Shown in pieces: positions 7,163 through 45,864 of a DNA stretch of 64,000 nt. This DNA is from Agelas oroides (Eukaryota; Porifera; Demospongiae; Agelasida; Agelasidae). Under the pieces are notes generated by a model. That model worked only from the letters and a program-made list of their open reading frames with translations, was not told where the DNA came from and did not search any database. The DNA is taken from the NCBI GenBank assembly GCA_949130485.1, contig OX422199.1, positions 4,760,402 through 4,824,401 on the forward strand, given 5' to 3'. The position numbers and the translations under genes are program-made. Every line of letters begins with the position of its first letter. Within the stretch, counting starts at the first letter, position 1.

Positions 7163-7171
7163 GTGAGCAGG
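7163..7171. repeat. Left 9-bp target-site duplication of the helicase transposon
   Basis: GTGAGCAGG directly precedes the TAGCCTCG terminus and is repeated exactly at 13992-14000 after the opposite terminus. Confidence 0.9.
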
Positions 7172-7306
7172 TAGCCTCGTTCCCAGGCCCCGCCCAGCTC
7201 TCCATCGCTTGCAGTACGGAAAAGCGGGAGAGGGCCTGGAATAATTTATCACGTGAGTGACGTAGGGGTAGAGAGAAGGGTAGAGAGGACTTAATTGAGC
7301 GTGGGT
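7172..7306 (+). repeat. Left terminal inverted repeat
   Basis: The outer 17 bases match the right end exactly. Inner homology resumes at about 7240 and runs to GTGGGT at 7306. Bases 7172 to about 7216 also match one half of the 82-bp element at 54970-55051, so this end defines a repeat family. Confidence 0.85.
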
Positions 7307-8384
7307 AGTCCAAACTGAAAACAGTATCACGCCCACGCAGGTTGTGTCAGCAGCTCGCCATACTCAATGCACACAATCCGGACGCGTGTACGCAAGAAGC
7401 TTGACGAAAACCAGTGGATACTTCTTTCATCAGCGCTGTGAATCTCATCCGTTTTTCGAGGTAAGCGGGGGTTGCCTGTACCTCAGATCCGCGTACCTGT
7501 GCGTGTTATACTGTACTCTCCAGAAAAGGTCACTCAGTATGCAGCATCACACATAGTTCGCAAGGCCTTTCCAAATGCTGAAAGCAAGATTGCTGGCAAA
7601 TCTCGTACTAAGCATATCTTTGGGATAGCACCAGTGGAGACTGCAACTCTGGAGCGCAGTGCCAGTAGTACAATTCAAGCAGACGGGGTATCCAGTTGTA
7701 TTCCTACCCCTGTTGCTGTGTTGCTTGAGACTGAGCAGTTTCTTAATAAACAACTGATGGAAAGAATACAGCTCCTTGAGGCAAGGGTACAAGAACTTGA
7801 GAAGACGTCTCTTGTCACCCTCGTTCAACAAGCAGATCAACTGCAGCATGGCAGCCTAATTGTCTGTGGTCCAGACACCCCTGAGCACTTTCAAAATTTT
7901 TCTATTGACGGAGTAATTCAAGAGCTCCAGGAACAGGCACCTAACATGTACAAACTGTTCATGCAACTTTGTGATGTCCACCAAAATGTCCCTCCTGATA
8001 GTAGCACCAGCATCAAAGAGATCAAGGGTGTCACCTCTCTCTGCACAGTCCTGAATGCAAGATCTAACAGGGTGAAGGGAGTACAACTCCTCATAAACAT
8101 GATGCTAATAGCACGATCAACCAGCAAACAGGTACATGTAGTGAACATGCAGGACTAGATTTCTGTGCACCTATTCATTAGACCCTATACTAACTCTAGG
8201 CTATCACGGTCCTCAACCATACTGGGATTTGCATGTCATATATGTACCTCGACTTGGAATTACCTGCGGCAACTAACATCTCAGGCCAGGTATACTGACC
8301 TTGAAGAGTGGCCACTGGATTTGGGTATACGACAACCTGAACATGCATCAGCAGGTCCGTCATGAGCGTGAAGGTATATTGGTA

Positions 8385-8528
8385 TAGCCTTGTTTCTAGG
8401 CCTCCCCATTTTTTACTCTTTCTCACCTTCACAATAATACGCAGAAGCAGAAGAGCTCCTCCATTTCTGTGCAGTATGGTGGATGCAAACAAAAAATATA
8501 TAATGGGGGAGGCTTTAGAACGAGGCTA
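8385..8528. mobile_element. 144-bp TAGCCTNG-ended MITE in a transposase intron
   Basis: TAGCCTTGTTTCTAGGCCTCCCC at the left is matched by the inverted end GGGGGAGGCTTTAGAACGAGGCTA. The nine bases outside the ends (ATATTGGTA and ACCATGGTA) agree at six positions, compatible with an aged 9-bp duplication. It begins 11 bases after exon 2 of the DUF6589 gene. The termini resemble those of the host transposon, so it is probably a non-autonomous relative. Confidence 0.65.
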
Positions 8529-9622
8529 ACCATGGTATTTCGCCACATTAACTTCAATAGCTGCCACTTAAAGGTGGCACACAGGTGCGGTGTCAATAAA
8601 CATGGCTATGCAAGCATTTGAAAAACCCGGAATCATTAAAAGTAATGCTCTCACCTATGCTAGAACACCACTTGACCATGCTCAACCTCACAGCAAGAAT
8701 TGCAGTCAAGATGCAGAACCTGCCACCTTGGGATGTGGACTGGACAGACAGTCGGCCTCAGAGGCATCGTAGCAGCCTCACATGCGCAGACTTCCTGCCT
8801 GATGAAAAAGATGCTGCAGAGCTCCACAAACGGGCAGTCCTGTACATGATGGAGGTCTTGGTTACCGAATTCAGAAGCCTTAGCAGCCTTAAGCACCTAG
8901 TTCCATCACGAGAGTCTCCCCATCGCATACAGAAATCTGTTGCTGTCCCAATGAAGGTCCTGTTTAGGGATGAGAAGCAAAAAGCAGAAACCACTGAAAT
9001 CCTTAGTGACCTCACGAAGGATGCTGCACTGACTGGTAATCCCCAGGTAATTAATGAAGAAGATAATACATGTTTGCATTCACTCAGCCCTTTAATCGCT
9101 GCTTCTGATAGGCCATTGTTGGGGACCAACTGACGTGCAAAACAATCAGGGGCAGAAAGAGGTGGAGACTCATAGAGGAAAAACCTAAAGATCAACTGAG
9201 TTGGGCACATGAAGTACCTGGCAAGTACTGTAACATACAAACTACTCTGTTATATAGATATACAGTAAACATGAGTACATGTACTGCTAATACCTTGTAG
9301 GGGATTTTCATTTCCTCTGGGAATGTCTCTGGGTGATTTTCGTCATCTTCTGGGGTGATCCAAGTCTGCCTGGGTCACTCTGTAACATCAGAGAATACAT
9401 CAACCGCAAACAAGTTGACAAGGGCGTGAAGGTGTTTAATGTAGGAGACGAATTTATCACCCATGCCTTCAGAGCACATCTGATTGCTAGCATATGCTGC
9501 CACTTGAAGTTGAAATCACCAGATGATGAAATCAACCATGAAATCACTCAGCAGTGGCTTGAGAATACGGCAGAAGCAATAGTTGCAAAGGCTCTCTACT
9601 CTGAACCATCCAAGGATCCAGT

Positions 9623-10381
9623 TAGTCTCGGAGCCAGACCCTCGCACACGGAGGAGGGTCTGGTAAACTTGCATACATAAACTCTTTATGGGATATGGCC
9701 TCCTTACAGGCTTCCTATTCAATAATTGAAGGTGTTGATTGGGTGCAAATATACATGTGCTCAATTAGCTATTAAACTGTGAAGATACTAGTAATGAAGC
9801 GACCGTTTGATAGTACCTTGGAGAGCGCCACTGCTACTTTTTGGCAGTTTAAACAGCGAATAGCAGGGTAGCCCAGAACTGTGGTGTTGGCTAACGAAAT
9901 TTGCGTGACTTATGTCCATTGCCGTGAATGCCTCGGCTACATCAAGCATGAGCGCTTCCAGAGGGCTTACAATAACTAAGATGGACTTACGTCTGCTTCC
10001 GTGACTTCCATGCGCCAAAATTCGCCGATGAACGTAGACTACCGTAGCAGAGGGACTTTCACAGTTCCACTGCTCGGGTAGTGAAATCGAAGACTTCTAT
10101 CCCTTTCATAACAGCTTTCCAGCTGCTCGAGATTCGCTGGAGAATATCTAAGCTTGTTGAATGATGGTCGCTTCGATTCTTGTATCAATCGCTGGTCCGT
10201 CAATCAAATTCGCCATGTTGTTATTACACGAACACGTGCCTTCGTGGGCAGAAATGTAATTACACAGTCATCAACCAATCAGATTCATCCCGCCGAAATT
10301 CCGCTGACTTCAAATTTGTATGTATGCAAGTTTACCAGACCCTCCTCCTCCTCCACATGAGAGGGTCTGGTTCCGAGACTA
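9623..10381. mobile_element. 759-bp TIR element nested in the transposase exon
   Basis: The left end TAGTCTCGGAGCCAGACCCTC and its inverted counterpart at 10360-10381 delimit the element. A second matched block, GAGGGTCTGGTAAACTTGCATACATA, extends the inverted repeat to about 60 bp. A perfect 9-bp duplication, GGATCCAGT, flanks it (9614-9622 and 10382-10390). Removing the element and one repeat restores the open exon of the surrounding DUF6589 gene, which fixes the boundaries independently. Each end contains a small hairpin (9634-9643 with 9654-9663). Terminal sequence, hairpin ends and duplication length resemble the host transposon, so it looks like a sibling family. No convincing ORF was found inside. 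Confidence 0.85.
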
Positions 10382-11351
10382 GGATCCAGTATACCATTTT
10401 CATAAGTCCTTTGTAAACATGGCCTTTCTTTACTCCGATCTTAGAATGTCTATACGTTGGGAGGATGGTCCACATATCATTAGGCATTGGAAACTTTGGA
10501 TTCCTCACTTCATGGGAACTGGCATGAAAAACTATGCCTTAGAGGCTGCAAATCTCATTGCAAACCTCAAAGCAGATTTCCCAGCTCACATTTCATATAT
10601 CGTATCTAACAATAGCACTGTAAATATGCGAGGGAAGCCTGGAGAAGGGAAACCACTCGACCAACTTATAGAGCACTACAACTTGTGTGTCAAGTATTTA
10701 GCGCTATATGTAAATGTTATGTACCATGCATGCAAATTTCTTAACAGGGTGTGCATTAACAGGAGTAAGGTTTTCCTCTAAGGGAACCATGACTGTTTGC
10801 TTACTTCAATTGACTATATTCAGGGTGATGAAACAAACTCTGCGTTCTAGTGGTGCCAACGTCACTGCTACACACATTGAGGACGTATCACTGTCTGCTC
10901 TGCTCCTCTTGGAGGCAGCCAAAAAGACAGACAGAGAATTTAGTGTAACACCACAGTCTCGCAGACATACAATACGGGACTCAATCAAAGACATACAGAA
11001 AGTGGCACATCACCTTATTGAAAACATTGTGACTACAGAGATGCCAGGCAGAGTGATGCCCAAGTTCAGTCACCCAACAGAAGCAGGATGGAAAAGACTC
11101 AGTAGCTCTAATTGGCTAGAAGGAATTCTTTCAAGGTCCTTGGTAGAAGAGCTAGAAACTGCAACTGAAAGGGGAGAGGTAGACCTAGATTATGAACTAT
11201 ATGATATAATGTAAAAGTAACGTGAAACCATATTTAGTGGCCTCCTTTTTTTATTTACTTTCCTGTCAAAATTCAAAGAGGTAACTTGTTTCTCAGCAGT
11301 TTTATTTGTGACATAACGACAACAACAACAACAACAAAATACGCGAACATA

Positions 11352-13402
11352 TTAACACTTCCTCCGCCTCTTATAGGGAGGTGCATCCACTACAAAATTC
11401 ATCACTACACTATAGAAACGAGATCTGAGTTCTGGTCTGAGAAATGCAACATTTAAGTCATCTGAAGAGGTTATATATTTTGCCCTACTACATATTTCTT
11501 GTATAACAAAATCAGAACGTATATACTGTGAACCCAAAATGCGGTAACTTGGCTTCTCTGCTAATATCTTGTCGCGTTCTTGTTCTAATGCAACTTGAAG
11601 CTGTTTAGACAAGGACTCTGAAATCTCATGGACAGTAGCAGGCTTCTTGCGGTATTTTCTGGTCCCTGGTTGAAGAATATCCAACCTAGCACAAGGAACA
11701 CCACCAGTACAGCACACTGTACAACAGGCTGTGTTGTGCCTTACAACTGCAGAACTTCCCAACCCCCTTAGTAAGATGTCTCGTAAACAATTCTCTGTGT
11801 TCCCACTAGCACAAAAATGTTCCAAAATGGGGTCCAAGGGTTTCTTTTTCCTTGTGCTGTAGAGCAGGTGGGCTCTTGCTTGGCAGCCATCGCGACCAGC
11901 TCGCCCACAAAGCTATGTAACAGGAAATGAGCTTAGTGTAAATTACCTGTGCAAAACGTCTTATGGGTGGAGCTTCAGCTATTGAGGAGCTGTAGACATG
12001 TACCTGGTAAAATTGCGATGGAGTATCTGGAGTGCCGTATACGACTACTAATTCAATATCAGCAATGTCCATCCCCTGTGACAAACATGCGGGGACATGC
12101 TGTAACAAAGACTGTAGGGATCAGTGATGACCAAATGAAAATACATACCATCCCAAAGGCTACCGTAGCCACAAGGCATCTGAGGATGCAGGTTGAGGAC
12201 TGGAACTTCTCCTGTATCACCCTTTTGGTGTTTTGTGTCAGGGAAGCATGGAACATGCTGACGGACTCCTTACGATAAGCAGACCCTGAAAGGAACCTGT
12301 ATATTTTTACAGCTGCATCTTTACTCTGGCAAAAATTTATCATTTTAGGGACATCCATAGGTTCTTTTGCTCCTTTAAGAAGTAATGCTATGCCATCCAA
12401 ATCACTCTGGAAATAAAGTAAAGGTTACATATCACTTCCAAGGGTTCGTAAAGAAATCACTTGTATGAATACATGTACTTACATTTAAACCCCTGCTTTT
12501 GCTAGCAGAGAGGAAAATGTTGGGCCTGTCTAAGGTCTGAGATACCAATGCAGGTTCCCTCAGACAAAGAGACTCGCAGATGGTTTCCTTAATACCATGG
12601 GGAGCGGTAGCTGTAAGTGCTATAAATGGTGCATTAGTCATGGCTCTCAAGCCACCGATCCTCCTAAAGCATGTCCTGAAATCCCGACCCCTGGGTAAAA
12701 CAAATGAGGAATTATAATTTTCAACTATTAATTACTGCACAATTGGTCTAACCATTCAGAAATGCAGTGGGCCTCATCCACAGCAACTTCTGCCAACTTT
12801 TCCTTGAAAACAGGAGTTGAAAACAAATCTCTCCAAGGTGGAGCTACAGCAGTCTCAGGGGCCATAAACACTAAACAGAGATTCAAAATGACTTGCATTT
12901 ACATGGCATTGTTCGTTTCCTACTAAAATTGTGCACATGCGTACCAAAGCGAAAATTGCCTGCAGCCACAGCTGTAAACTCGACGTCACACCCTACACGT
13001 ACTGCTGTCACACCTACATCAGCCAGCTGTTTTACCTAATAGAAGGTGTGTTTGTTCACTTCAGTTGTTGTATTGGTGAATTATTTGTACCTGTTGGTCC
13101 ATCAGGGCATTCAAAGGGCTGATGACAACACCAATAGCTGAATTCCCAATAGCTAGAGGAGCCAGGAACAGGCAAAGAGACTTTCCTGCTCCTGTAGCCA
13201 TCCTGACAAACACGTCCCTCCCATGGACCAGGGGCAAGAGGGCATCCAACTGCCCTGGCCAGAAACTTTTAAACTTGAAATATTTCTGAAGAGCTGCTTC
13301 CAACCTGCTCCTCCAGACACACTCAACACTAGGAGCATTACACTCTCCCTTAGCAAAAGGGCAGCTACTGCAACACACTGTGCTACACATATGTTTACAC
13401 AA
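11352..13402 (-). CDS. RecQ-family ATP-dependent DNA helicase, intact, 539 aa
   Basis: Seven exons on the minus strand: 13402-13091, 13035-12945, 12870-12753, 12690-12483, 12406-12149, 12075-12004 and 11912-11352. All junctions are GT-AG and the total is 1,620 nt including the TAA stop, with no break. Motifs in order: a Cys-rich N-terminus, FWPGQLDAL, Walker A MATGAGKS, ISPLNALMDQQ, DEAH box VDEAHCISEW, FIALTATAP, ATVAFGMGMDIADIELVV and GRAGRDG, followed by a Cys cluster (CCTVCC..C) and a basic tail PPYKRRRKC. Known: RecQ enzymes are 3'-5' SF2 unwinding motors. It has the RecQ core and a short zinc-like module but no obvious winged-helix or HRDC extension. The ATG at 13402 is chosen because no upstream extension is needed. 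It ends 138 bp from the converging DUF6589 gene inside the same transposon, so its role is probably in transposition rather than host repair (inference). Confidence 0.88.
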
Positions 13403-13876
13403 GCACGATAGTAGTCGAGTAGTAGAGTAGTAACTGAACAGATTCAGAACTCAGCATGCGCGCGGTTACTTTTGAATTTTGACAGTGACATCAGCGAGTT
13501 GAGTCAGCACATCGACTAATAATAATAGTTAATAAGCTTACAGGAGGTCACGAAATACCATCTTTTACAGCACAAGAGTTCATACTATACTAAAATAATC
13601 CTTAATAACCCTTACGCTTACCCTATAGTTCTCCTTGGTGGCATGTCAGATATGCATAACTCCTCGCCATCAGTACTCCACGACATCTGGTCTCCAGTCA
13701 AGTTCGGCGTCCATTCACGCCTTTGCAGCGGGATTTTCTTCACTGTCTGTCTTGGAGGCCTTCAAAACTTGACTACAGACGGTTTGCTAAACTTACAGAT
13801 GGCACGACAAAAAGCGCCATCTTCCGGGAAAGAGCTTGCAAAACGAGTGGGCGGGCGGCGTGTTGAGCTTTAGCTC

Positions 13877-13991
13877 ACCCACGTGCAATTAAGTTCTCTC
13901 TACCTATGACGTTTCTCACGTGATAAATTTTACCAGGCTCTCCCCTTTCGGTTTTTCGTTCGCGCGCGGGGAGAGCCTGGGAACGAGGCTA
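13877..13991 (-). repeat. Right terminal inverted repeat
   Basis: The inverted counterpart of 7172-7306. It includes a perfect 13-bp hairpin, GGGGAGAGCCTGG against CCAGGCTCTCCCC, next to the terminus. Confidence 0.85.
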
Positions 13992-14000
13992 GTGAGCAGG
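13992..14000. repeat. Right 9-bp target-site duplication
   Basis: GTGAGCAGG, identical to 7163-7171. Confidence 0.9.
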
Positions 14001-14168: not shown

Positions 14169-15776
14169 CTATGATGCACAGAGTTTGCTGGTTAGACTTC
14201 TCAGTATCTTGTGCGGGGTACGTATGTAGCTGCGGTAGCAATCACTTGACCATCTACCCATGGCTTTGATGATCTTCATCGGGATTCCGGCTTCCGCTGC
14301 TGCCGTGGCTGACCCAATGCACAGGCTGTGGGTACCAAAGAGCTCCGCTGGGAGCTTGAGCGAATGCAATGTGTTGAGTACCATTGCTTGGAGTCTTGGT
14401 CTTGTAAGCAGAGAGCCGTCTTGGAGCCGGAATATTGCATCTGGTTTGTGTGCATGCTTCCTGAGGTGTAGGAACTGCTTTGTGATTTGCACTGGACAGA
14501 TGTTTTGTTTGCTTGGTCCGATAACGATAGTGGCCCCTCTCCTGAATTGATCTGTTTTGCTGCTTTTGAGTCGTAGCTGTACCGTGTTCTGGTGAATGAT
14601 GGTGTCCTTTATAGTTAGATGTTACTTGGGGTGGAAGGAGTGTGTAGATGGATATGAGACTTCACGTGCTCTTAGACATCCAAAGTATGCAATGCTGATG
14701 GCTGTTGCATAAAGGTATCAGTCATACTTACTCAGGTGTCTATTGCTCAGGATTGACTCAATCAGCTGCTGCAGCAGCTTTGGGTTGATTGGCAGCCTGG
14801 TTCTGGTCTTGGACTGTCTTTGAACACCACGTAGGAGCCAGGACAGCTGCTGAGTGGGTCCCCCAGCCCTCAGCTCATTTGCTCTGCTCGTACTGCTGCT
14901 ATGTAGAGTCTGATTGTTGCATGTTGCACTTGCTTGCCGCAAAATAGCACAGTGTAGTTGTGTGGTTGGGAATGGAGTGATGGAATACTTCCTGCAAAAT
15001 GACGTGTAGTGCTTTGTTCCTGTAGAGTAAGTTAGCAATCATCGGACGACAGGTATATTCGGACACTCACACATATTTGTGCGTTGAGTAGTTCTCGAGA
15101 TATTGGACGATATCATTTGAACTCACCTATTTATACTGCACATAAATCAACCAGCGTAGTTTATGGAAAGAAACATGAAATATATTTATATCTCGAGAAC
15201 TACTCAACGCACAAACTCCGGACAAGTACCAGCATGTAGCCAAGAGCCTGTAGATTCTACTGATACTAATATGGTGGAGACTTCAACTTGTTTGGAGACA
15301 ACACAGCAAGAAATGACAAATTTCACCGTCCGATATCGATCGAATCGGACTGGTCCATGTTCAGCTGCGCCCCTGAGTGTTCAAAGCAGCTACCGCTACC
15401 AAAATATAGTGCGAATTGGGGAGGTCTTGGGGCATCGTATCGATGCTAAAATCTCTCCAAAAGCAGCTTCAGAGGAGGCACAAACAACAGTGTCTGAAAA
15501 TACATACACTTTTCCGAATATTGATGTTTTTCGGACGGCCATTTTATCGCTTCTAGCGCCAACAGGAAACAATGCGCGGGCGTCATTTTTGGTACACCAG
15601 GTACCATGTACCTCAGCTACAGTCTTATGGTATCGCCGAATGTTTACGCAGTTTTCCCTCCGCGTTTGAGTGTCCGAATATACCTGTCGTCCGATGATTG
15701 CTAACTTACTCTAGCATATGCTCGTTTTGTTGCTGGGGAGAGTGCTGCTCTTTGTAGCTGTTGCATTCTGAGTGTC
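14169..15776 (-). pseudogene. Tyrosine recombinase of the DIRS/Ngaro-like element
   Basis: The N-terminus starts at an ATG at 15776 (MQQLQRAALSPATKRAYA). It is cut by the element at 15025-15711 and resumes with TGTKHYTSFCRKYSITPFP. The C-terminal catalytic half reads through SSKTDQFRRG, then GTHSLCIGSATAAAEAGIP and MGRWSSDCYRSYIRTP. The usual HSxRIG motif is HSLCIG here, so the second catalytic arginine is a cysteine. The nucleophile tyrosine context YIRTP is kept. The first half is also frame-broken near 14950-14960. It is inactive on these grounds. Confidence 0.75.
15025..15711. mobile_element. 687-bp TA-flanked TIR element (Tc1/mariner-type target)
   Basis: Inverted ends of about 42 bp begin GAGTAAGTTAGCAATCATCGG. 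They are flanked by TA at 15023-15024 and 15712-15713. Excising the element with one TA restores the continuous recombinase reading frame on the minus strand, so boundaries and target are certain. A second, internal inverted repeat pairs 15076-15103 with 15188-15215. A 168-codon plus-strand open frame inside resembles no transposase, so the element is probably non-autonomous. Confidence 0.85.
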
Positions 15777-15916
15777 AGAGCTTTGTCAGCCAGGCAGGGA
15801 TGCATGTTGCTTCTGCGTCTGCTTCTGGTGCAATCAGCTTGAAGTGATGTACCTGTTGGCAGGAGAGAGCATCAGCGATTTGGCTATCTGCCCCTGGGAG
15901 GTGTTTTAAAGAGATA

Positions 15917-17300
15917 TTAAAAGCTATTCTTAGCAGCCAGGATAAACAGTGTGCAGCATAGCTGAACTAGTGCCGAGTTTTTTGGACTTTTTGCTTGCCA
16001 CATGTGAACAATTGCCTGATTGTCACAGTAGACTACTATCTTCTTCCTCTGCCATTGGTTGCCCCATGTGGCCACTGCTGCGATGATTGCAAAAAGTTCT
16101 TTCCATTGGATCGACCTTGAGAGCTGCTCCTTTGAAATAAGCTCCGAAGCCCAGTGTACCAGATGCATCCGTGAATAGGTTCAGGTCTGCTGCGGTTTGC
16201 CAATCTGCTTGGAGCATCAGACTGACTCCATTCCATCCTGGAAGGAAGTCGTGCCACCATTGGATGTCTGCCCTGGCACCGGCTGTTAGAGTTATATGGT
16301 GGTGGAGCTTTTTGACTGAGGTGCTGAGATCTATCAGTCCCCTCAAGAAGATGCGACCGGCTGGGATGACTTTGGCTGCAAAGGATAACTTGCCAATTAG
16401 AGACAAAAGTTCTCTCTTTGTTGTTTTCTTCTTGGTGGTACTCCATTGTCGTAATAGCGATGTCAGTGCCTCTAAATTGTCACGGGGAAGGCGTAGTTCC
16501 ATCTTTACTGTATCCAGGAGGATGCCTAGGAAAGTTATCACGGTTGTTGGACCTTCTATCTTTCTTTCTGCTATTGGAAAGCCCAACTGTTTGCATATGT
16601 GTAGCATTTTCTGTAGTGCTATCTCACACTCGGCAGATGAAGGTTTCCCCACTATCAGAAAATCGCCAAGGTAGTGAATGATGTTTGAAATGAGATAGTT
16701 GTGACGAAGGATCCATTCCAGTGCCTCTGCATACTGGTTGAATATAAATGGGGCTGACCGAAGTCCGAAGGGAAGGCAGCAATCCACATAGTACTTTTGC
16801 CGCCAACATATGCCCAGCAGTTCTCTGTCTTCTACTCGTACTGGTAGGGTGCGAAAGACACTTTTAATGTCAATTTTAGCAAGTAAAGAACCGCTGCCCA
16901 GCCGATTTATCATTCCGACTGCGTCGTTGATAGTAGCGTAGCGGAGGGTGAATGCCTCTTTGTCTATGCCATCGTTAATACTGCCATCAGGAGGAGCCGA
17001 CAGGTGCATGATCATTCTCCAGCCCCCTGTTTTCTTTGGAATTACACCAACTCCAGAGCATTGCAGATTTGGGATTGGTAGTGTGTCGAAAGGCCCTACA
17101 ACTCTCCGAGCCCTGACTTCTTTGCCGAGCTCTTCATCTATTATCTGAGGATGTTGGGATGCGGAAGCCAAGTTTCTGGAGATGCGCTGGCACCTCGGTC
17201 CATAGTATCCGAGAGAGACACCTTTATCAATACCCTTTAGTAGTTCTTTCACCCAATTCGGGTCAGTGTGAGTCTTTAACTCTTCCTCAAATTGCCAGCG
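15917..17300 (-). pseudogene. Reverse transcriptase and RNase H of the DIRS/Ngaro-like element
   Basis: Long minus-strand frame with RT signatures: VIPKKTGGWRMI, KIDIKSVFRTLPV, LPFGLRSAPFIFN, the catalytic box and a TFLGILLDT thumb boundary. RNase H follows (LFTDASGTLGFGAYF), and after a frame change near 16100 so does KELFAIIAAVATWG with VVYCDNQAIVHMW. The catalytic box reads HYLGDF instead of HYLDDF (about 16661-16676), which removes one metal-binding aspartate. The neighbouring order gag, RT/RH, recombinase supports a tyrosine-recombinase retroelement. Confidence 0.8.
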
Positions 17301-18892
17301 TCGTAAGGGGGTGATTATCTGCTTAAGTGGGCTGCTGCTTGGAGGGGCACCTACTAGCTGGGTGTTCCCCTCCACAGCCTCTCTTGTTGCAAATGTGTTT
17401 GAACTTGCATGCCTCTCCTCTTGTACAGCCCCTGGTGGCATTAAAGCGGATGCAAATTTCGGCTCCTGTGGATGTGTGTGTGACGGTGTCTGTGGCTGGG
17501 CCAAGACGTGACAGAATGGCTGGCTGGTTTGCTGTTGCGAAAATAGTTGCGTGTTTCTGTGGCATTTCCCAATCCTGCGCTGGCTGGTTTGGGAGAGAAG
17601 CACCAGACAAATATGTCCTCTTTGTACTTATCCCAGGGGACTTTTTTGTCTTTCGCTGCAAGCTGTCTGAAACGGCAGTCATACTCAAATTATGCATGCC
17701 TCAGCTGGGTAATCCTGAAATGCCGTGGTGATCAGGGTCTGGTATTTAAGCATCTCTAAAGCTCTGGCAGGTTTTGTAGCCACAATTACCCCAGCAAATC
17801 GGTTCCAAGCTTCCAACCAGCTAGCTAAGCCGGTCACTGTCTTTCTTGGCTGCTTGAAAGATTGCTTGGAGAAATCTTGCCTTCTTTTTGTTATTGTTAA
17901 TTTGTCAAATGATACATACTCACCTTTGACAATTCTGGCTGCGTATCTTTCGGGGAGAGGGGGGCAACAGGGCACAGATAGGCTCTTCAACTTGGACTTT
18001 GTGTGTGAAGACAGACGGCCAGTCTGTCTTCGATGCTTACGCTTTGGATGTCTATGCCTGCGGCCTGAGCTTGAATCTGTGCTGAACTCCGATGAAGACT
18101 CAGTGTCGGTGCTTGTCGTACTCGAGCTGCTGCTGGAGGGTCGGGGGTGCTTGTGGTGTCTCTTCTTCTGGCTGGACGAAGTTCCGCGCTGGCGAGGTCT
18201 GTGTCTTCTCCGTGAGTAATGCTGGGGGCTTCTGGTAGCTCTTTCTCGGACCATACTACTGTCACTGTCCGAACTGCTCGATTGATATAGCCCCAGCGTG
18301 TATGGCAGGGCATCGGGGGGTTCGGTGTCGGAGCTGGCATGCTGAGTACGAGTGTGGCGGGAGTGTGGAGAGAACCTCAATGGGTCACGCTGGCGACCTT
18401 TGCTGCCCTCGCTCGGCCTTCTGGTCGAGATAGGCGAACGAGATCGTGAGCGAGAGCTCACGCTCGGGGAACCGCGCTGGCGGCTTTCGGTTTGATGTCG
18501 GCGCCGGCGGGGACTGGGTTCGCCACTGCCATACTTGCTCGCGCTGGCGAGCTGCTGCTGTGCTCCGCCGCTGCCGCGGCTTCTTGTGCGCTATGGTTCT
18601 GGGTTCGAGACTAGGGGATATATGGCGATTGTGGTCGGTTTTGCGTCGCTCGCACTGGCGAGCTTCGTGTAGGCGAGGATTCCTATCCATCTGCTTGGCT
18701 CGGTTGCTGGTGCCTGAGCGATCAAGGTGTGCACTCAGACGAACTGCGAGTGTCTTCTTGTTAGTACTTACCACTAGTAGGCAGTTTCTTTGCCTTGAGC
18801 TGTTGGCGTAAGCCATCCAAGGTCATACTGCCTACCTCTTGTGAGGTGGGTTGCTGCTCCTCGGACGCTTTAGCTTTTTTAGATGGCGGCAT
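17301..18892 (-). pseudogene. Gag-like region: SAP motif, SR-rich segment, CCCH knuckle
   Basis: It starts at an ATG at 18892 (MPPSKKAKASEEQQPT), followed by a SAP-like helix pair (MTLDGLRQQLKAKKLPT) broken by a frameshift near 18780. Next comes a long Arg/Ser-rich basic-acidic segment (18461-18000), then a conserved gag core (VTGLASWLEAWNRFAGVI). After another frame change near 17690 a zinc-knuckle-like array follows (CIRFNATRGCTRG, CKFKHIC, C..HPASRCP). Such proteins bind element RNA and nuclear nucleic acid (family knowledge). Two or three shifts make it non-functional as it stands. Confidence 0.7.
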
Positions 18893-22828: not shown

Positions 22829-23124
22829 CTGGAAGAGTGCAATAAACAGATACAGTATTCGTAGTCATTATGAGAATAGTGTCTAATACTTCAAAACCGA
22901 GGGATGGAGCCAATTGCGCCACCAATACAGCTCCTGTAAGCTGATGGCAAATATAAACATAACGATAGTATTGCAAACACTACCATTGTGGTCCATGCAG
23001 CAGCACAAGGACCACCAAGGTCTCGTGGATTGACCGCTGAGGTCTCTAACATGCATCATATGCCTGTATTCCAAGTCAGCAAACTTGAATGACCACTGAG
23101 GCCAAAAGATGCTTACCAAAGTCA

Positions 23125-24010
23125 CAGACACACCAAGGTCAACAATATTACTGGAGTCACAGACACACTCAGACCACCGAGGTCAACAATATTACTGGAG
23201 TCACAGACACACTCAGACCACCGAGGTCAACAATATTACTGGAGTCACAGAGACACTCAGACCACCGAGGTCAACAATATTACTGGAGTCACAGACACAC
23301 TCAGGCCACCGAGGTCAACAATATTACTGGAGTCACAGACACACTCAGGCCACCGAGGTCAACAATATTACTGGAGTCACAGACACACTCAGACCACCGA
23401 GGTCAACAATATTACCAAAGTCACAGATACACTCAGACCACCGAGGTCAACAATATTGCTGGAGTCACAGACACACTCAGACCACCGAGGTCAACAATAT
23501 TACTGGAGTCACAGACACACTCAGACCACCGAGGTCAACAATATTACTGGAGTCACAGAGACACTCAGGCCACCGAGGTCAACAATATTACTGGAGTCAC
23601 AGACACACTCAGACCACCGAGGTCAACAATATTACTGGAGTCACAGACACACTCAGACCACCGAGGTCAACGATATTACTGGAGTCACAGAGACACTCAG
23701 GCCACCGAGGTCAACGATATTACTGGAGTCACAGATACACTCAGACCACCGAGGTCAACAATATTACTGGAGTCACAGACACACTCAGACCACCGAGGTC
23801 AACAATATTACTGGAGTCACAGACACACTCAGACCACCGAGGTCAACAATATTACTGGAGTCACAGATACACTCAGACCACCGAGGTCAACAATATTACT
23901 GGAGTCACAGATACACTCAGGCCACCGAGGTCAACAATATTACTGGAGTCACAGATACACCCAGACCACTGAGGTCAACATGACTACCAGGGCCACAGAT
24001 ATAATACGAC
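23125..24010. repeat. 44-bp minisatellite, about 20 copies
   Basis: The unit ACCGAGGTCAACAATATTACTGGAGTCACAGACACACTCAGACC is given here in words only as starting ACCGAGGTCAACAATATT. Copies differ at a handful of positions (GACCACC/GGCCACC, GACACAC/GATACAC). Degenerate copies extend to about 22985 and 24060. Because 44 is not a multiple of three and the unit lacks plus-strand stops, all three plus frames stay open over hundreds of codons. These are not evidence of a protein. Confidence 0.92.
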
Positions 24011-24200
24011 CACCGTGGTCAACATCCACAATCACCACTGAGGTGGGGCAAGATAGAAAACCATGCTGACAATACGGTGGATGGGCTTACAGGCGTAGTA
24101 CCAGCTAATGCAATCAAACCAGTTACTGAAACATAGCTATGCTTGCACCAGCATACCTAAAATATGATATTGTGGGTAATAGTGTGACACACATATGAAA

Positions 24201-28938: not shown

Positions 28939-30480
28939 TCAAGAAAAGGAAGTTGCTGACCACAAAAATAAAAGCAAGCAGAACAACAGGAAAGAGGAGA
29001 AACGTATCAACTGTGTCTTAGACGGATTAAACTTAAGGCCGCGAATAGTAGCAAAATTCTCACAACAGTCCAGCATGATCCTTAGGGCTGATGGAGAAGG
29101 TGCCAGAAGAACCAAATCATCTGCATAGCATAGAGCGCCAGCAAAAAGAGAGTCCCAGTGACACCCAACACCAAGCTTGCATAGGTCACCTAAGAGGTCA
29201 TCAATGTAGATGGTAAAAAGAATTGGAGAAAGTACACCACCTTGTCTGACACCATTTGAGACAGGAAAACTATCAGAGAAAGAGTTCCCCCACCTTACAC
29301 ACATGTGCTGCTCCTTGTACCATGATAAAAAGAAGTGAATAAGATGAGCAGGGAGCTCCCTGTCAAATAACCTTTCAAAGAGTATCTTGTGATTCACAAG
29401 ATCAAATGCTTTTGATGCATCAAGGAAGCAGGCAAAGACAGCAGAATTTTCGTGCAAGTAACGAGAGACAATATTCTTGATAGTGCCAGTGCAAAGAGTA
29501 GTTGACATTTTCTGCTTAAAGCCAAACTGAAGACCCGAGGTTAGAAAATGATCGGGATAAGAAAGAAGAATGCACCACTCAAGAGCTTTGCTCAGAATTG
29601 GAGCAAGAGCAATGGGACGATAGTTGTCAGATGAACTGGGATCTTTATTGCCTTTGGGAATGGGAACAATGGTACAGTCCCTAATTGGCTTAGGCATATA
29701 ACCATGTCTAAGAATAGCAGTGAACAAAGAAGCTAGTGATGAGCAGATGGCTGGTAGAGCATGGATAAGGTGGTCTGACATAAGTGTAGAACCATCAGAT
29801 TTGCCACGTTTGAGATGGGAAAAGGCGTCAACTACGCACTCTTCCGAGATAGAAACAGCTTTGAGGTCGTCAGCAGAAAGAGAGGATAGAAGAGAGGAGT
29901 GAAGTGAATCACACCAAGTGGATGGCTGAGAATTCAGGAGTCTTTCGAGCTTGGAGGAAAACAGCTGAGAAATGTGATTAGAACCAGAGACACCATCAAC
30001 GGAAGAGGCAGGAGGAGGCTTATTTGACTTATTAACACGGTGTACTTGTTGCCAAAAGCTTTTGGAGTTGGAGGAGGCAAGAGCAGCAGCCATTTTCTCA
30101 CGCCTAATGAACTCTTCACGGCGCTTCAGGCGCCTCACTTCGTACTTATAACGTGATCTGGAGGACTTTTTAATCTGATGAAGAACACCAGAGGAAGGAG
30201 ATCCAGCCTGCTTCCAAACAGCATGCCAAAAGTTAGCCTTTTCCTTGTACAAACGGGCAGCAGTATTCCAGCCTGGAACAGAGGAAGAGTGACACACTGT
30301 GGGCATGGTTGACACTGCACAATGATGAAGGCACAATGATAGTTGTTCACAAAACCAATCGAGAACATGAGTGTGTACTGTACACTGAGGATCACAACAG
30401 TCACAAATAGAATTAGGAAGTGACGGAAGATAATGAGAAACTAAATCACAATAGGACCTAATGAGGTCAGAATCTGCTGC
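28939..30480 (-). pseudogene. LINE reverse transcriptase
   Basis: Contains CTIVPIPKGNKDPSSSDNYRP, ACFLDASKAFDLVNHK, NGVRQGGVLSPILFT and the catalytic LCYADDLVLLAP (about 29115-29127), followed by FNPSKTQL. All RT core motifs are present and the YADD box is intact. The frame is continuous with the endonuclease except for one base in a homopolymer near 30523. The C-terminal end is frame-shifted after 28939. The sequence style (SNGVRQGGVLSP, WYKEQHMCVRW) is that of CR1/L2-like clades. Confidence 0.85.
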
Positions 30481-31256
30481 ATGCCAGGCAATACGGGTTT
30501 TAGTGGATTGAGTAGGAGCAGAGGAGGGGGGGTTACAGAGAGATCAACTTGAAGAGAGCAGGCTAGAGGTGAATGATCGGAAAGATTGGAGCCAAAGTCC
30601 ACATGACGGAAGTGAGAAAGATCAGGAGCAAGAGAGGTATCACAAATGAAGTGGTCAGGCCAGGAGGAAGCACTGCCATCATCTCTCATGTAGGTGAAAC
30701 AAATGGAGGAGTGGAATGGGAGATCAGCAGATACCAAATTAAGATCAGTCATAAAGTTACGGAGATGTTGTAAGGTCATGCTAGCGCGACAAAAATCAAC
30801 GTTAAAATCACCAGCAATAAGAATGTGATCAGAAGTATGACGATTAATAAAACCCTCAAGTTCACCCACAGCAATTAGATATTCATTGTGAGATGCAGAG
30901 GATCCATCATTGTGAGGGAGGTAAACACAGATCAGGAGGGTTGTGGTGCCACATCGATCACGCAACAAAACTGAACAAAACCGTTTGGAGAAGGAATCTA
31001 GACAAGATACAAAAGGGAGAAGAGATCTTCTGAAGAGGATGGCACAGCCACCAAAAGGCTGACCAAGAAGGAGGTCAGAGCTATCCATTCCACTCACCCC
31101 AGATGAAAGGAAGTTATTGTTAACATTGAGAAGACTGAGCTGCTCATGAAGAAGCCAATGTTCCTGAATCAGGCAAACATCACAAGATTGAAGTAAATCA
31201 CAAACAGCGTGTTGACCAGAGTTCCAGCCTCTGCAGTTGTAAGACACTAAACGCAA
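30441..31256 (-). pseudogene. LINE apurinic/apyrimidinic-type endonuclease
   Basis: Signature motifs in order: SYNCRGWNSG, LIQEHWLL (catalytic Glu), LIAGDFNVDF (Asp/Asn), SWPDHFICD and LSDHSPLAC (catalytic His). This domain nicks target DNA for target-primed reverse transcription. It starts at a TTG or spliced start overlapping the ORF1 stop and is followed by the RT after a one-base shift. Confidence 0.85.
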
Positions 31257-32110
31257 CGAATCAACAGAGGTAATTTCTGAGAGGGTTCAGCCGAAGTGGT
31301 CAACAGACCCAGATCAACTTGCTTAGAAAAAGGTGGGGACTCAGACCCAGAGGTGCTACGACAGGCGGCCAAATTTTCTCTACATTGTTGGCGAGCCTCA
31401 GGAGACAGATCTTCACGAACAAAAATACCCTTTCACACTGTAGTGTTTTAGATTAGAGCGATTCGCAAGAACAAGACGACGATCCCAGGGTGAAGCCAGC
31501 TTCAGGAGAATGGGTCTAGGACGTGAGGTGGTGGGCTCATCACCTCCAGGTTTCTTAAATCTACCAATGTGAAACATATCCTTCACTGGAGTGGGCCTAC
31601 CAGTCAAAAACTCCAACATACTCTTCACAGAGTCCATGGTCTCAGGGAGAGATCGAGATTCCCTGATACCAAACACTACCAAGTTCTCACACCGGTCAGG
31701 AAGAGCACTAGACAGCCTGGACCTGGTAGGAGGTTTGAAAGAAGAACCTGGGGGAGGAGATATGTCGTTGCCAGAGGCAATGGCATTGGAATGAGAAGGA
31801 AGGCCAGCAAGACACGACTCAATGTTGCCCATTTTAGAAGAAAAATTAGAAATCTCTATGCTTAGAGAGTCAAATTTATGCTCAATGGCCTCAAGGACAG
31901 AGTTATTACGCTGAACCAATTCAGTGCAGGAGTCAACAACAAGTGGAGGCAGCAATACTAGATCAACAGCTTCACAAAAGATCTCTGGCAGCTTGTCGAT
32001 TTCATCCAGCTTATCAAAAGCAACAAGGATGTCGTCCAAATCTGCAGCAGCTTGGGACCGTTTTTCTGACCCGCGACGTTGTTGAAAACTAAGGCCAGCT
32101 AGCCTAGACC
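31247..32110 (-). pseudogene. LINE ORF1, coiled coil and RRM-like region
   Basis: It has an N-terminal helical part (DDILVAFDKLDEIDKLPEIF, then FDSLSIEISNFSSKMGNIES). An RRM-like nucleic-acid-binding region follows, with NLVVFGIRESRS and RPRPILLKLASPWDRRLVL. A single extra base after SVKG near 31420 ends the frame early. The shifted frame continues IFVREDLSPEARQQCREN to the stop at 31247. Known ORF1 proteins of this type bind LINE RNA. Confidence 0.7.
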
Positions 32111-33862: not shown

Positions 33863-35005
33863 GTGATGCGTTTTCTGCTCACGTGTTTGTGGGTATGGCT
33901 CATCATCTTACGCCTACCCCCAACCCACTACCATGATCCGTTGATGACAACTATCACTGGCGAATCCCCCGAGACAGTCAGGTTCGCATACCGTGTATTG
34001 CTTGATAGCTATGGAGTAGTTGTTGTTGACTGGAAAAGGATGAATTTGCTCAGACTTAAAACACGAGGTATATACAGGGTTCATCCATGAAGGCTGTACA
34101 GGGTTCATCGGCCAGCAGCAGTTATCATCACCCTGTTGCTGGCCTCTGGGGACATCGAAACCAACCCTGGCCCTGTACAGTATCCGTGTACTGTATGCGA
34201 AAAACCTGTGAAGGCAAACCAGCGTGGCATTATGTGTGATGGCTGTAGTCAGTGGACACACGCTCGTTGTGGCGGAGTGGAAGAGGCTGAATACCTGCTG
34301 CTTACTGCTCAGGAAAGTTGTGAATGGTTCTGTCCACTCTGCACACAAACAATTGCTAGCTTGAGCATTTCAGGTATTAACAACTCGTTGATGTCATTGC
34401 AACCCAAAATAGTTGAGGTTAACACAATCCAGACTGATGCCAAGCACCCTGGTGTGTGTGAGACAAGTCCTCATCATTCAGGAACACACAGTGAAGATCG
34501 TGCAAAGAAGCGGAGTGCTAAAAATAGAAAGTACTATGAAAGACCTAAAGCAAGAATTTTGTCAAAAAGAAAGCAGCAGTACCAGGAAAATGCTGAGGTA
34601 GTAAAGGCTGCCTCCCGTGTAGCGTCTAAAGTTAATTATGCAAGAAACCCAGAGCCCAAGAAAGATGCTGCACGTGTAGCGTCTAAAGTTAACTATGCAA
34701 GAAACCCTGAAGCTGCACGTGCAGCGTCTAAAGTTAATTATGCAAGAAACCCAGAGCCCAAGAAAGATACTGCACGTGTAGCGTCTAAAGTTAACTATGC
34801 AAGAAACCCTGAAGCTGCACGTGCAGCGTCTAAAGTTAATTACACAAGGAACCCAGAGCCCAAGAAACATGCTGCACGTGTAACGTCTAAAGTTAACTAC
34901 GCAAGAAACCCTGAAGCTGCACGTGCAGTGTCTAAAGTTAATTACACAAGGAACCCAGAGCCCAAGAAACATGCTGCACGTGTAGCGTCTAAAACCCAAA
35001 AGTGA
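33863..35005 (+). CDS. 2A-like peptide, PHD finger and lysine-rich repeat protein
   Basis: One frame runs from an ATG at 33863, with a single TGA at 34088-34090, to a TGA at 35003-35005. After the TGA a hydrophobic stretch (AAVITLLLASG) leads into the 2A-type motif GDIETNPGP (34148-34174). A C4HC3 PHD finger follows (YPCTVCEK, IMCDGCSQWTHARC, WFCPLC, to 34342). A basic region with seven or so repeats of ASKVNYARNPE comes next. The last codons shift by one base relative to the 1,015-codon frame that follows, and the reading SKNPKVKIGH joins them. PHD-bearing N-termini with 2A peptides are known from some invertebrate retroelements. Here it precedes a Helitron-like region. Confidence 0.65.
34148..34174 (+). 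other. 2A-like ribosome-skipping motif
   Basis: Encodes GDIETNPGP, matching the D-(V/I)-E-x-N-P-G-P consensus at which ribosomes release the upstream peptide at the final Gly-Pro bond. A hydrophobic stretch precedes it and the PHD finger follows seven codons later. Activity is not shown by sequence alone. Confidence 0.75.
34609..35000 (+). repeat. Coding minisatellite of about 102-bp units
   Basis: Repeats of GTAGCGTCTAAAGTTAA-containing units alternate between two lengths and encode ASKVNYARNPEPKKDAARV and ASKVNYARNPEAARA. The array stays in frame, and variation is mainly D/H, A/T and R/S. Confidence 0.85.
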
Positions 35006-38000
35006 AAATTGGGCACTCAACAAAATATTATGCAAAGAACAAACAAAGCATTGGTGCCAAAAAAAGGGACAAATATTCACTGTGTGAGCCAAAGCTTGCT
35101 AAAATAGAGATGTATCTGCAGGAAATAGAAGCCAATCTGTTGGAAAATTCAAAAGCAAGGCTTGCATTGATAAAAGCATTAAAGAAACAGCACCAAACAC
35201 TAGCAGAGCAAGCACGCGGTGTTTTGGGTAAAACTGCTTGTCGATTAGCCACTAAACGGCTACTCAACAAAGCTTTGCAAGTGCGCAAGGAGCATGCTGG
35301 GTGTTTGCTGAAGATGGCTAGATCAATTCAGAGTCTGGAGATCAAAGGACAAAAAGATTTTGGTGAAACTAGCCATACAGCTTCTACTGAGCCTTACTTT
35401 TATGATTCTGCTTACCAGCTTGTGAAAAGACCCAATGCTATACCAATTGATGAGAATGGGAAGTGCATAATTGCCAAGCAAGTTAAGAAGGAAAGTGGAT
35501 GGAAGCAATGGCAGTGTACCAATGAATGCAAAGGTATAACCCCAAGCGAAGAGCTCTCCATTATAATGTTCAAACAGTCATTTGAGTGCTCCATACAAGA
35601 GGTGCATCGTACTCTAGATAAATGTGATGAGTGTCCTCGTACACATTACACTAAAACCTCAGGGGGTTTCGCTATAGACCGTAAAGGTCACCCATTGATT
35701 TGTTCCATTGGTACTGGATGCAAAAGTAAACTTAGGATTTTGAGAGCAGCAGCTACTCACTATCCTTTGTTGCGAAAATTCTTACATGATGTACACACTG
35801 CTATCAGAAGTCATGTGTTTGTCCATGACATTGACCAAGCTCTGTGTGCTGGTGACTTCCGTGCACTGATGGAACTCACCGAGATGACAGACTTTGAAAC
35901 TATGTTGACAAATGATGTGGAATCAACGTACGAGCAGTGCACTGATTCCACTGTTGAGGCAGTGCTTCCACAACTAGAGTCACAGCTTGTGGTTACTCAT
36001 GCAAAGCTAATCAGTCAGCTAGAGAAAGAAATCAATGATTATCCAGAGCATGTTTGCTGCAGCTGTGAACAACTGCACCAAAGGAAATCTGTCACACGAG
36101 TGAACATTTCTGACAACCTTGGCAGTGAGGTTTGGGAAAGATTGAAGAGCTTTATTTTACAACAGAACCCAAGTGCGTGTGACATGTTTATGTGCAAGTA
36201 TTGTAAACCTCTCATTAGGAACAACAAGTTACCAGCACGTTGTGTCCTAAATGGTTTGCAATTAGACCCAGTACCCCCAGAGCTAGCTAAGCTCGACTCT
36301 TTGAGTAAGCAGCTCATTCAGCGAGCAAAATGTTATCAGACAGTTGTTAGGCTGGGAACATACACAGGTAAAGTACCTGTGTATAATTCCCTTAAAGCCT
36401 GTAAGGGTACCATGTTTTTTCTTCCACTGCCATTGAATAAAACACTTGAGACCCTTGACCAGGTACAGCCTACTAGCAATGTGAAGATTCCTCTGCCAAA
36501 TCCAGAGTTGTTTATCTTAGTAAATGGGAAGCCCACAAAAAGTAACACCGTTTGGCGGACCTTAGTGGATGTAAATGCTGTAAAGAGTGTGATACAAACA
36601 CTGAAACAAACAAACTGGCTATACGTAGATGTTGATGATGCATCTGTTGACGAGGCAGCTACAAAGGTTATAGAAGTTGTGAGGAATGCTAGTAGCACTA
36701 TGCTGGAGAAGGCAAGTGTAGACGATATCCAAGGCTTTCAAGCTTTCACCATCCGAAACTTAGACAACAAATTGTCTACGGATTCTGACTCCATCCAGTA
36801 TACGTCAGTGGATAAAATAGCAAAGGCAGCTCAAAGCCTGGGGGCAGGAACCTTAATGGCAAAGCTCGATGTGCGAGCGGCCTACAGACTGGTTCCGGTT
36901 CACCCAGACGACCGCGGTTTGATGGGTTTTCAATGGCGCGGGGCGCTCTACATCGATGGCATGCTGCCGTTCGGCCTCCGCTCGGCCCCCATAATCTTTA
37001 CCGCTGTTGCAGATGCCCTAGAGTGGATTTTCCGGCAGCAGGGCGTAGAAGAGATTGACCATTATTTGGACGATTTTATTACCATGGGACCTTCGGGTTC
37101 ACAAGTGTGTGGGCGTAACCTGGACGTTATTTTCCAGGCCTGCGAGGAGCTGGGAGTACCTCTAGCAATGGAAAAATTGGAGGGCCCGACTACACGTCTT
37201 ATATTTCTAGGCATAGAGATCGATACCACTTCCGGATCGATGCGCTTACCAGAAGAGAAGCTGGCTCGCCTCCACCAAGCACTGCAGTCATGGGTCGGAC
37301 GGAAGGCGTGTACAAGGCGTGAACTTGAGTCTCTGGTGGGTCTTCTTCACCATGCATGTCGTGTCATTCGTCCTGGGCGATCGTTCCTGCGGCGAATGAT
37401 CGACCTGCTCCGCATTCCCAGGCGTCAACATCATCGGCTCCGACTGAACCGACAGTTTCGCGCTGACCTCAGGTGGTGGCTCACCTTCGCATCGCATTGG
37501 AATGGAGTGGCGCTGTTTCCACCAACAACACCAGCCAAATTTCAAGTGACGTCTGACGCCTCCGGCTGGTGGGGGTGCGGTGCGTGGTTTCAGTCGAGCT
37601 GGTTTCAGTTTCAGTGGCCCACAGGTGCCGAACACCACCACATTGCCTTCAAGGAGCTCCTGGCAGTTGTTATGGCGTGCGCCATTTGGGGTGGAGACTG
37701 GTATGGGTCGCAAGTCAGTTGCAGATGCGATAACCAGGCAGCCGTCCAAGCCATCGCCTCTCGATCTTGCCGGGACCCGAGCATGATGCACCTGCTGCGA
37801 TGCCTGTTCTTCCTCGAAGCCCATTTCCAGTTGGAGGTTGTAGCAGCATATCTTCCTGGCATTCACAATTCTCTGGCCGATGATTTGTCGCGTAATCGGC
37901 TTCTCTCTTTTCGTTCTAAGGTGCCATCAGCGGACCCACTACCAGCTCCGATGCCCCTCCACCTACCAGATCTTCTGCTGGACACCAGCCAGGATTGGAC

Positions 38001-38049
38001 ATCTCCAGCCTGGACCCAATCGTTCTGCGATACTGTGAGAAAGCATTAG
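35002..38049 (+). CDS. Chimeric ORF: Helitron-like N-terminal region fused to RT and RNase H
   Basis: A 1,015-codon open frame. Residues 1 to about 595 match the N-terminal half of Helitron-like proteins. They have a helical start, Cys pairs (WKQWQCTNECKG, CDECPRTHY, CKYCK) and the block NNKLPARCVLNGLQLDP through LIQRAKCYQTVVRLGTYTG. From about residue 598 it becomes a tyrosine-recombinase-retroelement RT: QYTSVDKIAKAAQ, AKLDVRAAYRLVPVHP, LPFGLRSAPIIF, HYLDDFITM (residue about 687, box intact), then RNase H (TSDASGWWGCGAW, RCDNQAAVQAI, LADDLSRNRLL). RT fingers upstream of motif A are missing. Base composition changes abruptly to GC-rich near 36,840. No HUH nuclease or Pif1 helicase is present. 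I infer a retroelement joined to a Helitron-like element. Confidence 0.8.
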   Translation: MKIGHSTKYYAKNKQSIGAKKRDKYSLCEPKLAKIEMYLQEIEANLLENSKARLALIKALKKQHQTLAEQARGVLGKTACRLATKRLLNKALQVRKEHAGCLLKMARSIQSLEIKGQKDFGETSHTASTEPYFYDSAYQLVKRPNAIPIDENGKCIIAKQVKKESGWKQWQCTNECKGITPSEELSIIMFKQSFECSIQEVHRTLDKCDECPRTHYTKTSGGFAIDRKGHPLICSIGTGCKSKLRILRAAATHYPLLRKFLHDVHTAIRSHVFVHDIDQALCAGDFRALMELTEMTDFETMLTNDVESTYEQCTDSTVEAVLPQLESQLVVTHAKLISQLEKEINDYPEHVCCSCEQLHQRKSVTRVNISDNLGSEVWERLKSFILQQNPSACDMFMCKYCKPLIRNNKLPARCVLNGLQLDPVPPELAKLDSLSKQLIQRAKCYQTVVRLGTYTGKVPVYNSLKACKGTMFFLPLPLNKTLETLDQVQPTSNVKIPLPNPELFILVNGKPTKSNTVWRTLVDVNAVKSVIQTLKQTNWLYVDVDDASVDEAATKVIEVVRNASSTMLEKASVDDIQGFQAFTIRNLDNKLSTDSDSIQYTSVDKIAKAAQSLGAGTLMAKLDVRAAYRLVPVHPDDRGLMGFQWRGALYIDGMLPFGLRSAPIIFTAVADALEWIFRQQGVEEIDHYLDDFITMGPSGSQVCGRNLDVIFQACEELGVPLAMEKLEGPTTRLIFLGIEIDTTSGSMRLPEEKLARLHQALQSWVGRKACTRRELESLVGLLHHACRVIRPGRSFLRRMIDLLRIPRRQHHRLRLNRQFRADLRWWLTFASHWNGVALFPPTTPAKFQVTSDASGWWGCGAWFQSSWFQFQWPTGAEHHHIAFKELLAVVMACAIWGGDWYGSQVSCRCDNQAAVQAIASRSCRDPSMMHLLRCLFFLEAHFQLEVVAAYLPGIHNSLADDLSRNRLLSFRSKVPSADPLPAPMPLHLPDLLLDTSQDWTSPAWTQSFCDTVRKH

Positions 38050-38986
38050 CGAACTCCACACAAAAGACTTACAGAGCTGCAGTCAAGCGTTTCATGTCAT
38101 TTTGCCAGTCGTTTAATGTGTCAACACCATTTCCAGTTACTGAATCTCTATTGTGTTATTTTGTAGCCACGTTAGCTAACCAGGGACTAGCCCCCTCAAC
38201 CATAAAAACGTACCTGGCCGCAGTAAGACACGCGCAGATAACCAGATGTCTCCCTGAGCCCCGCCATGATTCATCCCTGCCACGCCTCCGCCTGCTTCAA
38301 ATGGGGGTACGCCGCGTGAGAGCGGAGGGTAACCTTCCCCTAGTCGTCCGCGATTGCCGATAACTCCCGACATTCTTCGCCAAATTGGATCCCAGTGGGC
38401 TTCGTCAGCATCAAGTTTTGACACTATTATGCTTTGGGCGGCGGCTGTCACTTGCTTCTTCGGTTTTTTTCGGGCGGGAGAGATTACTGTACCTTCGGCA
38501 GCTGCCTTTGATCCGTCTGTCCACCTGGCATGGGGCGACGTGGCCTGCGACTCCTTACAGCACCCCTCATCCATCCGGGTACACCTGAAGCGGTCGAAAT
38601 GTGACCAGTTTGGCAGAGGTGTGGCCGTATTCTTGGGTAGGACGGCAGACGCTTTGTGTCCAGTGACGGCGGTTATTGCATATGTGACGAGGAGAGGCAA
38701 CACCTCTGGACCTTTCTTCCGCTTTGAAAATGGAACACCACTGACAAAGACCCAGTTTGTGACCCGGATAAGGAGCGTCCTGCGGGAGGTTGGAATCCCT
38801 TACCAGAATTATTCGGGTCATAGCTTCCGAATAGGTGCCGCGACGGCGGCGGCTCGTGCCGGCATCCAGGATTCTACAATCCAGGCCCTAGGTAGATGGA
38901 GCAGCGATGCCTTTTTGACGTATATCAGGACGCCGAGGAACCAGTTAGCTCGTTTTTCTCGTGATATTGCACTGATTCATTGTTGA
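37995..38986 (+). pseudogene. Tyrosine recombinase with one frameshift
   Basis: The first frame (37995-38363) starts MDISSLDPIVLRYCEKALAN and carries the SAM-like N-terminal domain (TQKTYRAAVKRFMSFCQ, LAPSTIKTYLAAVRHAQ). The second frame (from about 38350 to 38986) carries the catalytic domain: FFGFFRAGEIT (box I Arg), LKRSKCDQFGRG (Lys), SGHSFRIGAATAAARAG (His-x-x-Arg), LGRWSSDAFLTYIRTP (Trp and Tyr). All catalytic residues are present, and only a one-base shift near 38350 separates the halves. It overlaps the end of the RT/RNase H frame by 55 bases, as usual in compact retroelements. Confidence 0.85.
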
Positions 38987-44483: not shown

Positions 44484-45019
44484 GTGCACTGTTAGCACTT
44501 CATATGCACATGCTTGTGCTACTTATGGCACAAATTAGTTATTGTATGGCTGCTCATGACACATGGCAAATATTCGCACAAGGGCCATACGGCCCACGTG
44601 CTTTGACATCACACAGTGCCAATAATTATTTGCTGTGTGGCACTCGCAACTGTACAATAACAAAGCAAACTTGTTGTTTCAGCAAAGTATCATGTACTAC
44701 AGTGTGAGAATTGAGTAATTTCTCAAGCATCCCACATACAAGCCGGCAGTACTTTCTTTGAATTACTACCTACCAATGCAGTTGCTACAGACCTCTCTCT
44801 GCTGAAAATGAGTAAATTTCACTAGCCTTCATATAAGCACTACATTTTTAAGTTAGCATGGGATGGATAGTCACATGTAACTGTTACTTGCTAAGCACTT
44901 TGCTGACGCAACAAACTTGTTTTTGCAGTATATGCATGGATCAAAAATAGTATTGTAAGAGCTAGACCAGTCGTATGTATATAGACAGTTGGTGTGAGAA
45001 ATATGGTCATGGAATGAGA
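44484..45019. other. No gene seen
   Basis: Unique-looking sequence between a TIR element and a minisatellite, with no recognisable coding or structural signal. Confidence 0.4.
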
Positions 45020-45560: not shown

Positions 45561-45864
45561 CCATGCTTCTTTGATATGGATAGTAGGAATTTTCACTACT
45601 ATGGCTTCACTCCTTGGTGGGAATGGGGCGTATATGGCTTAGCCCATGGTAGGAACATGGATAAATAGCTGCATGTGTAGTCAGGCTGGTATGGTCTGCT
45701 TTTTGTGATTGCTCGGTGTGACCATGTACTGTACTCAAAATGTGCATAATATATATGTAAGCAGACTCGCTCCCACAATGTCCTGCATTTGTCTAGTATT
45801 TTTTTGTTGCGGTCTATCTAGCTATACAGATGAGAAAATATCATGACATTAGCTACATTACATT
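45561..45864. other. Upstream spacer of the receptor-like locus
   Basis: About 300 bases without a confident exon. They end in the sequence directly before the first recognisable beta-helix codons. A signal-peptide exon would be expected upstream but was not identified. Confidence 0.3.

Follow-up and report, generated by a model that had tools for sequence, protein, structure and literature searches.

A stretch of 64,000 nucleotides from the sponge Agelas oroides (assembly GCA_949130485.1, contig OX422199.1, positions 4,760,402 to 4,824,401 of the forward strand), referred to here as the window, contains a 6,820-bp insertion at positions 7172-13991 with TAGCCTCG inverted ends. The ends are identical over their first 15 bases (TAGCCTCGTTCCCAG), and the similarity then continues in blocks to about 135 bp. 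The insertion is framed by an exact 9-bp target-site duplication, GTGAGCAGG, at 7163-7171 and 13992-14000. It carries two convergent genes, one matching the Pfam family DUF6589 (PF20231) and the other encoding a RecQ-like helicase, whose stop codons face each other at 11214 (forward strand) and 11352 (reverse strand) with 137 bases between them. The element is very probably an AcademH-type DNA transposon, in which DUF6589 would be the DDD/E transposase and the RecQ-like helicase an accessory enzyme.

Both genes were examined with profile searches. PF20231 matched five of the six forward-strand frames given to the Pfam search: two above the curated cut-off (E 4.6e-18 and 4.2e-10), two more at E of about 0.001-0.002, and one at 0.059 only. 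The N-terminal forward-strand frame of the gene gave no such match in this search. On the reverse strand, frames matched DEAD and Helicase_C above the cut-off, and TIGR00614 (RecQ family) matched three helicase frames (E 9.7e-18, 1.1e-12 and 3.6e-6), all below its full-length cut-off. A better preserved relative in the same genome, L053, shows DEAD, Helicase_C and RecQ_Zn_bind. The convergent pair that a sequence-only reading of this DNA had proposed is borne out by these matches and by the facing stop codons.

The boundaries are supported by uninterrupted target sites. When the two flanks were joined at GTGAGCAGG and used as a query, the same genome returned C2:10684665-10684795, which is 96% identical across the full 131 bases, together with two more uninterrupted places at 88%. 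Two of these empty sites, L085 and L086, were inspected; each contains a single GTGAGCAGG, and their sequence is continuous across the junction; a 10-base gap in L086 lies in the left flank, away from the junction. Paralogous empty sites with one GTGAGCAGG show directly that a mobile element inserted into a repeated target, and the inverted termini and exact duplication noticed earlier are confirmed. The features of the locus are collected in Table 1.

Table 1. Features of the insertion and its immediate borders, in window coordinates.
Feature	Position	Strand	Remarks
Target-site duplication, left copy	7163..7171	.	GTGAGCAGG; empty sites L085, L086
Left terminal region	7172..7306	+	begins TAGCCTCGTTCCCAG; at least 41 genome matches, itself included
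DUF6589 gene, N-terminal coding exon(s)	7514..8146	+	assigned by similarity to L051; no above-cut-off Pfam match
DUF6589 gene, exon part	8301..8378	+	first acidic motif VYDNLN, D codon 8331
Short insert resembling a miniature inverted-repeat transposable element (MITE)	8385..8528	.	TAGCCTTG...AACGAGGCTA ends; no clear duplication
DUF6589 gene, exon	8657..9049	+	start of Pfam domain
DUF6589 gene, exon	9115..9222	+	second acidic motif VGDQLT, D codon 9124
DUF6589 gene, exon split by nested element, left part	9300..9605	+	
Nested MITE-like element, 759 bp	9623..10381	.	ends TAGTCTCGG; 9-bp duplication GGATCCAGT
DUF6589 gene, split exon, right part	10383..10706	+	third motif LDQLIEHYN, E codon 10671
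DUF6589 gene, C-terminal exon	10810..11214	+	
Helicase, C-terminal exon	11352..11912	-	CGRAGRDG
Helicase exons (homology blocks)	11986..13390	-	
Helicase blocks, first half	~13390-13085, 13038-12943, 12898-12743	-	DEAD, GAGKS in ~13390-13085
Helicase blocks, second half	~12698-12477, 12367-12125, 12075-11986	-	Helicase_C in 12367-12125
Right terminal region	13857..13991	-	left end inverted
Target-site duplication, right copy	13992..14000	.	empty sites L085, L086

The same organization recurs in the host genome, which comprises 259 Mb and contains 118 DUF6589 matches grouped into 84 places, the window included. Linkage was assessed for the 30 best-scoring matches (L009-L038) with 1.5 kb on each side. 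A helicase piece on the opposite strand, and hence convergent, was present in 27 of these 30 loci, which include the near-identical pairs L011/L012, L013/L014 and L017/L019 and two places from which some of the helicase queries derive (L009 with L052, L025 with L053). No helicase piece was found within 1.5 kb of the DUF6589 match in L010, L021 and L038. The same queries matched none of 38 control loci, 20 of them shorter than 0.8 kb.

Five longer loci (L049-L053), chosen as close or well-preserved relatives, were examined for their ends. All five contain helicase exons, and in four of them TAGCCTCG ends with perfect duplications enclose both genes (8 bp in L049; 9 bp in L051, L052 and L053); the ends were looked for and not found in L050. 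Other copies with both genes between such ends, which the earlier reading proposed to look for, do exist. The left end by itself has at least 41 matches at 96-100% identity among the best candidates scored, itself included. Twenty-eight such loci were inspected: one is the window, seven have only one end in the stretch examined, and 20 are short, non-autonomous copies with both ends. A perfect 9-bp duplication flanks 16 of the 20, with L065 and L066 sharing one, and these duplications vary in sequence. Of the remaining copies, one has an 8-bp duplication, two have a 9-bp duplication with a single mismatch, and L074 shows no duplication. On the left side of the element in L053 (1867-2301), a zf-AD zinc finger was found (Pfam E 1.6e-9); it may be the N-terminal, DNA-binding part of that element's transposase.

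The window copy retains complete ends, but its putative transposase gene is broken, so the earlier description of a complete transposon holds for the termini and fails for the coding part. The frame of 8301-8378 differs from that of the preceding homology block, whereas L049, L050 and L051 read through this region near 8300 in one frame, which identifies a frameshift in the window. Homology to L051 and L052 is also continuous, in a single frame, across the site of the 759-bp insert. This nested element has 40 scored places in the host genome at 88-100% identity, itself included, and its ends and duplication suggest that it may be mobilised by another AcademH-type family. With another transposon lying in an exon of its putative transposase gene, the window copy is dead. 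No break comparable to that in the DUF6589 gene was noticed in the helicase gene of the window, whose splicing was not checked. A genome search with window 10383-11264 returned the window itself as the only 100% match; the nine other matches are 68-76% identical, and thus no close sister copy was found.

DUF6589 also occurs in a second type of element. L054 and L056 hold two copies with no difference between them in 6,729 bases; they have CAGTCGTTCCGCA ends and are flanked by 4-bp duplications (TTGA and TGCT), and this element looks recently active. It encodes a single intronless frame of 1,900 amino acids with DUF6589 in the middle of the protein (E 6.1e-17), and none of the helicase queries matches L054. 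Towards the C-terminus, the motifs SPDTDVY and TGCDY...IGKATFL look by eye like those of XPG/FEN nucleases; a Pfam search with the C-terminal parts of L054 and L055 gave no match for this stretch. A cysteine-rich C-terminus is also apparent by eye in the element at L054:830-7558, and C2:19766780 is a third place, with an equal score.

These elements bear on whether the helicase could be the mobilising enzyme, in a rolling-circle, Helitron-like manner, with DUF6589 as a passenger. The linkage in 27 of 30 loci would be compatible with such a role. Helitrons, however, have neither target-site duplications nor inverted ends, and a Helitron identity is contradicted by the inverted ends and 9-bp duplications. 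Together with the clean empty sites, these features point to staggered cuts, and elements of the L054 type have moved with DUF6589 and no helicase match. A helicase-driven mechanism is regarded as extremely improbable.

Kolobok elements target and duplicate TTAA. The window element resembles KolobokH, in which a RecQ helicase stands beside a DDD/E transposase (PMC9587614), but differs in the length and the target of its duplication. A Kolobok or KolobokH identity is contradicted by duplications of nine varied bases instead of TTAA, and the duplication length fits AcademH, so that assignment to a RecQ-bearing Kolobok rather than to Academ is extremely improbable.

The AcademH assignment draws on published features. 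The literature consulted lists Academ among the superfamilies with a DDD/E transposase (PMC9587614) and gives 9- or 10-bp duplications for AcademH and 3- or 4-bp duplications for AcademX, a difference tied there to helicase versus nuclease (PMC10045372). The window element has a superfamily 2 (SF2) helicase of RecQ type (DEAD, Helicase_C, TIGR00614; linkage in 27 of 30 loci) next to a transposase candidate, as well as a 9-bp duplication with empty sites, which recurs in 16 of the 20 short copies. The window copy is interrupted by the nested element and frameshifted. The L054/L056 element fits AcademX in its 4-bp duplication length; it has a DUF6589 core and inverted ends, and its C-terminal stretch, XPG/FEN-like by eye, may be a counterpart of the XPG nuclease domain of AcademX. 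The window element departs from AcademX in its helicase gene and 9-bp duplication. As expected within one superfamily, the two types appear to share one transposase core: both cores match PF20231, and hhalign aligns them (91.8%, E 7e-7, 378 columns), the first motif not being covered.

No Pfam family other than DUF6589 was found here in both the 9-bp and the 4-bp element types, and each type conserves its D, D and E motifs. Its recurrence with ends and duplications, these motifs, and its presence in AcademX-type elements with no helicase match support it as by far the best transposase candidate, and it is most likely the Academ transposase core. An RNase H fold is no more than suggested, by low-confidence models. 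Hermes (hAT) was the top-ranked solved structure for both of the DUF6589 models, which are weak, and model A1 shows a strand with D, a second strand with D, a long helical stretch and a helix with E. This resembles the order of structural elements in Hermes. Sequence identity in the alignments is 7-8%, the 9-bp duplications differ from the 8-bp duplications of hAT elements, and a relation is unproven. Foldseek with the A1 model gave no match at E<=0.001, profile A2 had no match to solved structures by sequence, and the two that L054 had (E 0.7 and 0.93) are no better than chance.

One could argue that DUF6589 binds DNA in an accessory role and that a different, unseen protein acts as transposase in trans, given the weak structure models and the predicted nature of its transposase activity. 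Nevertheless, DUF6589 is the sole Pfam family common to both element types, with conserved D/D/E residues and related cores, which makes this very unlikely. With DUF6589 as the transposase, the protein would bind the TAGCCTCG ends, cut, and attach them to the target with a stagger of 9 bp between the strands; repair would then yield the 9-bp duplication. The RecQ-like helicase would most likely unwind the ends or process joint molecules and gaps.

The remainder of the window contains further apparent mobile sequences. Frames at 14172-18590 and 34091-38986 resemble reverse transcriptase and tyrosine recombinase by eye and may represent DIRS-like retroelements; the former directly adjoins the AcademH-type transposon, and its 14172-14621 portion matches Phage_integrase below the Pfam cut-off (E 0.0079). 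At 28939-31286 and 59523-60833, frames resemble by eye a non-LTR (long terminal repeat) retrotransposon with endonuclease and reverse transcriptase and a Gypsy-like polyprotein. Several phases are open at 23089-24069 and 44871-45592, which appear to be tandem repeats.

The element belongs to a kind already known, and is an ordinary, well-demonstrated example of it; the earlier interpretation is borne out in part, the two genes belonging to a transposon of a kind already published. Kojima reportedly described AcademH DNA transposons, with transposase and helicase in one element, in 2020 (Mob DNA 11:15). The name DUF6589 appears in no paper of the literature searched, a search that did not extend to Kojima's paper. 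Because that paper may well treat these proteins under a different name, no priority is claimed for DUF6589 as a transposase. PF20231 is still labelled a family of unknown function in a copy of Pfam whose newest models date from 2025.

DUF6589 genes occur in animals and fungi. If the proposed role is true, they would be transposon genes, not to be annotated as host genes, and the catalytic core could be tested. On a tentative and rather doubtful extension, DUF6589 would supply the catalytic core throughout the Academ superfamily and would form a remote branch of the Hermes/hAT-like RNase H transposases, the same core producing a 9-bp stagger when paired with a RecQ helicase but one of 4 bp when fused to an XPG-like nuclease. 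The host genome offers a natural comparison between two related cores that differ in their accessory parts and in duplication length.
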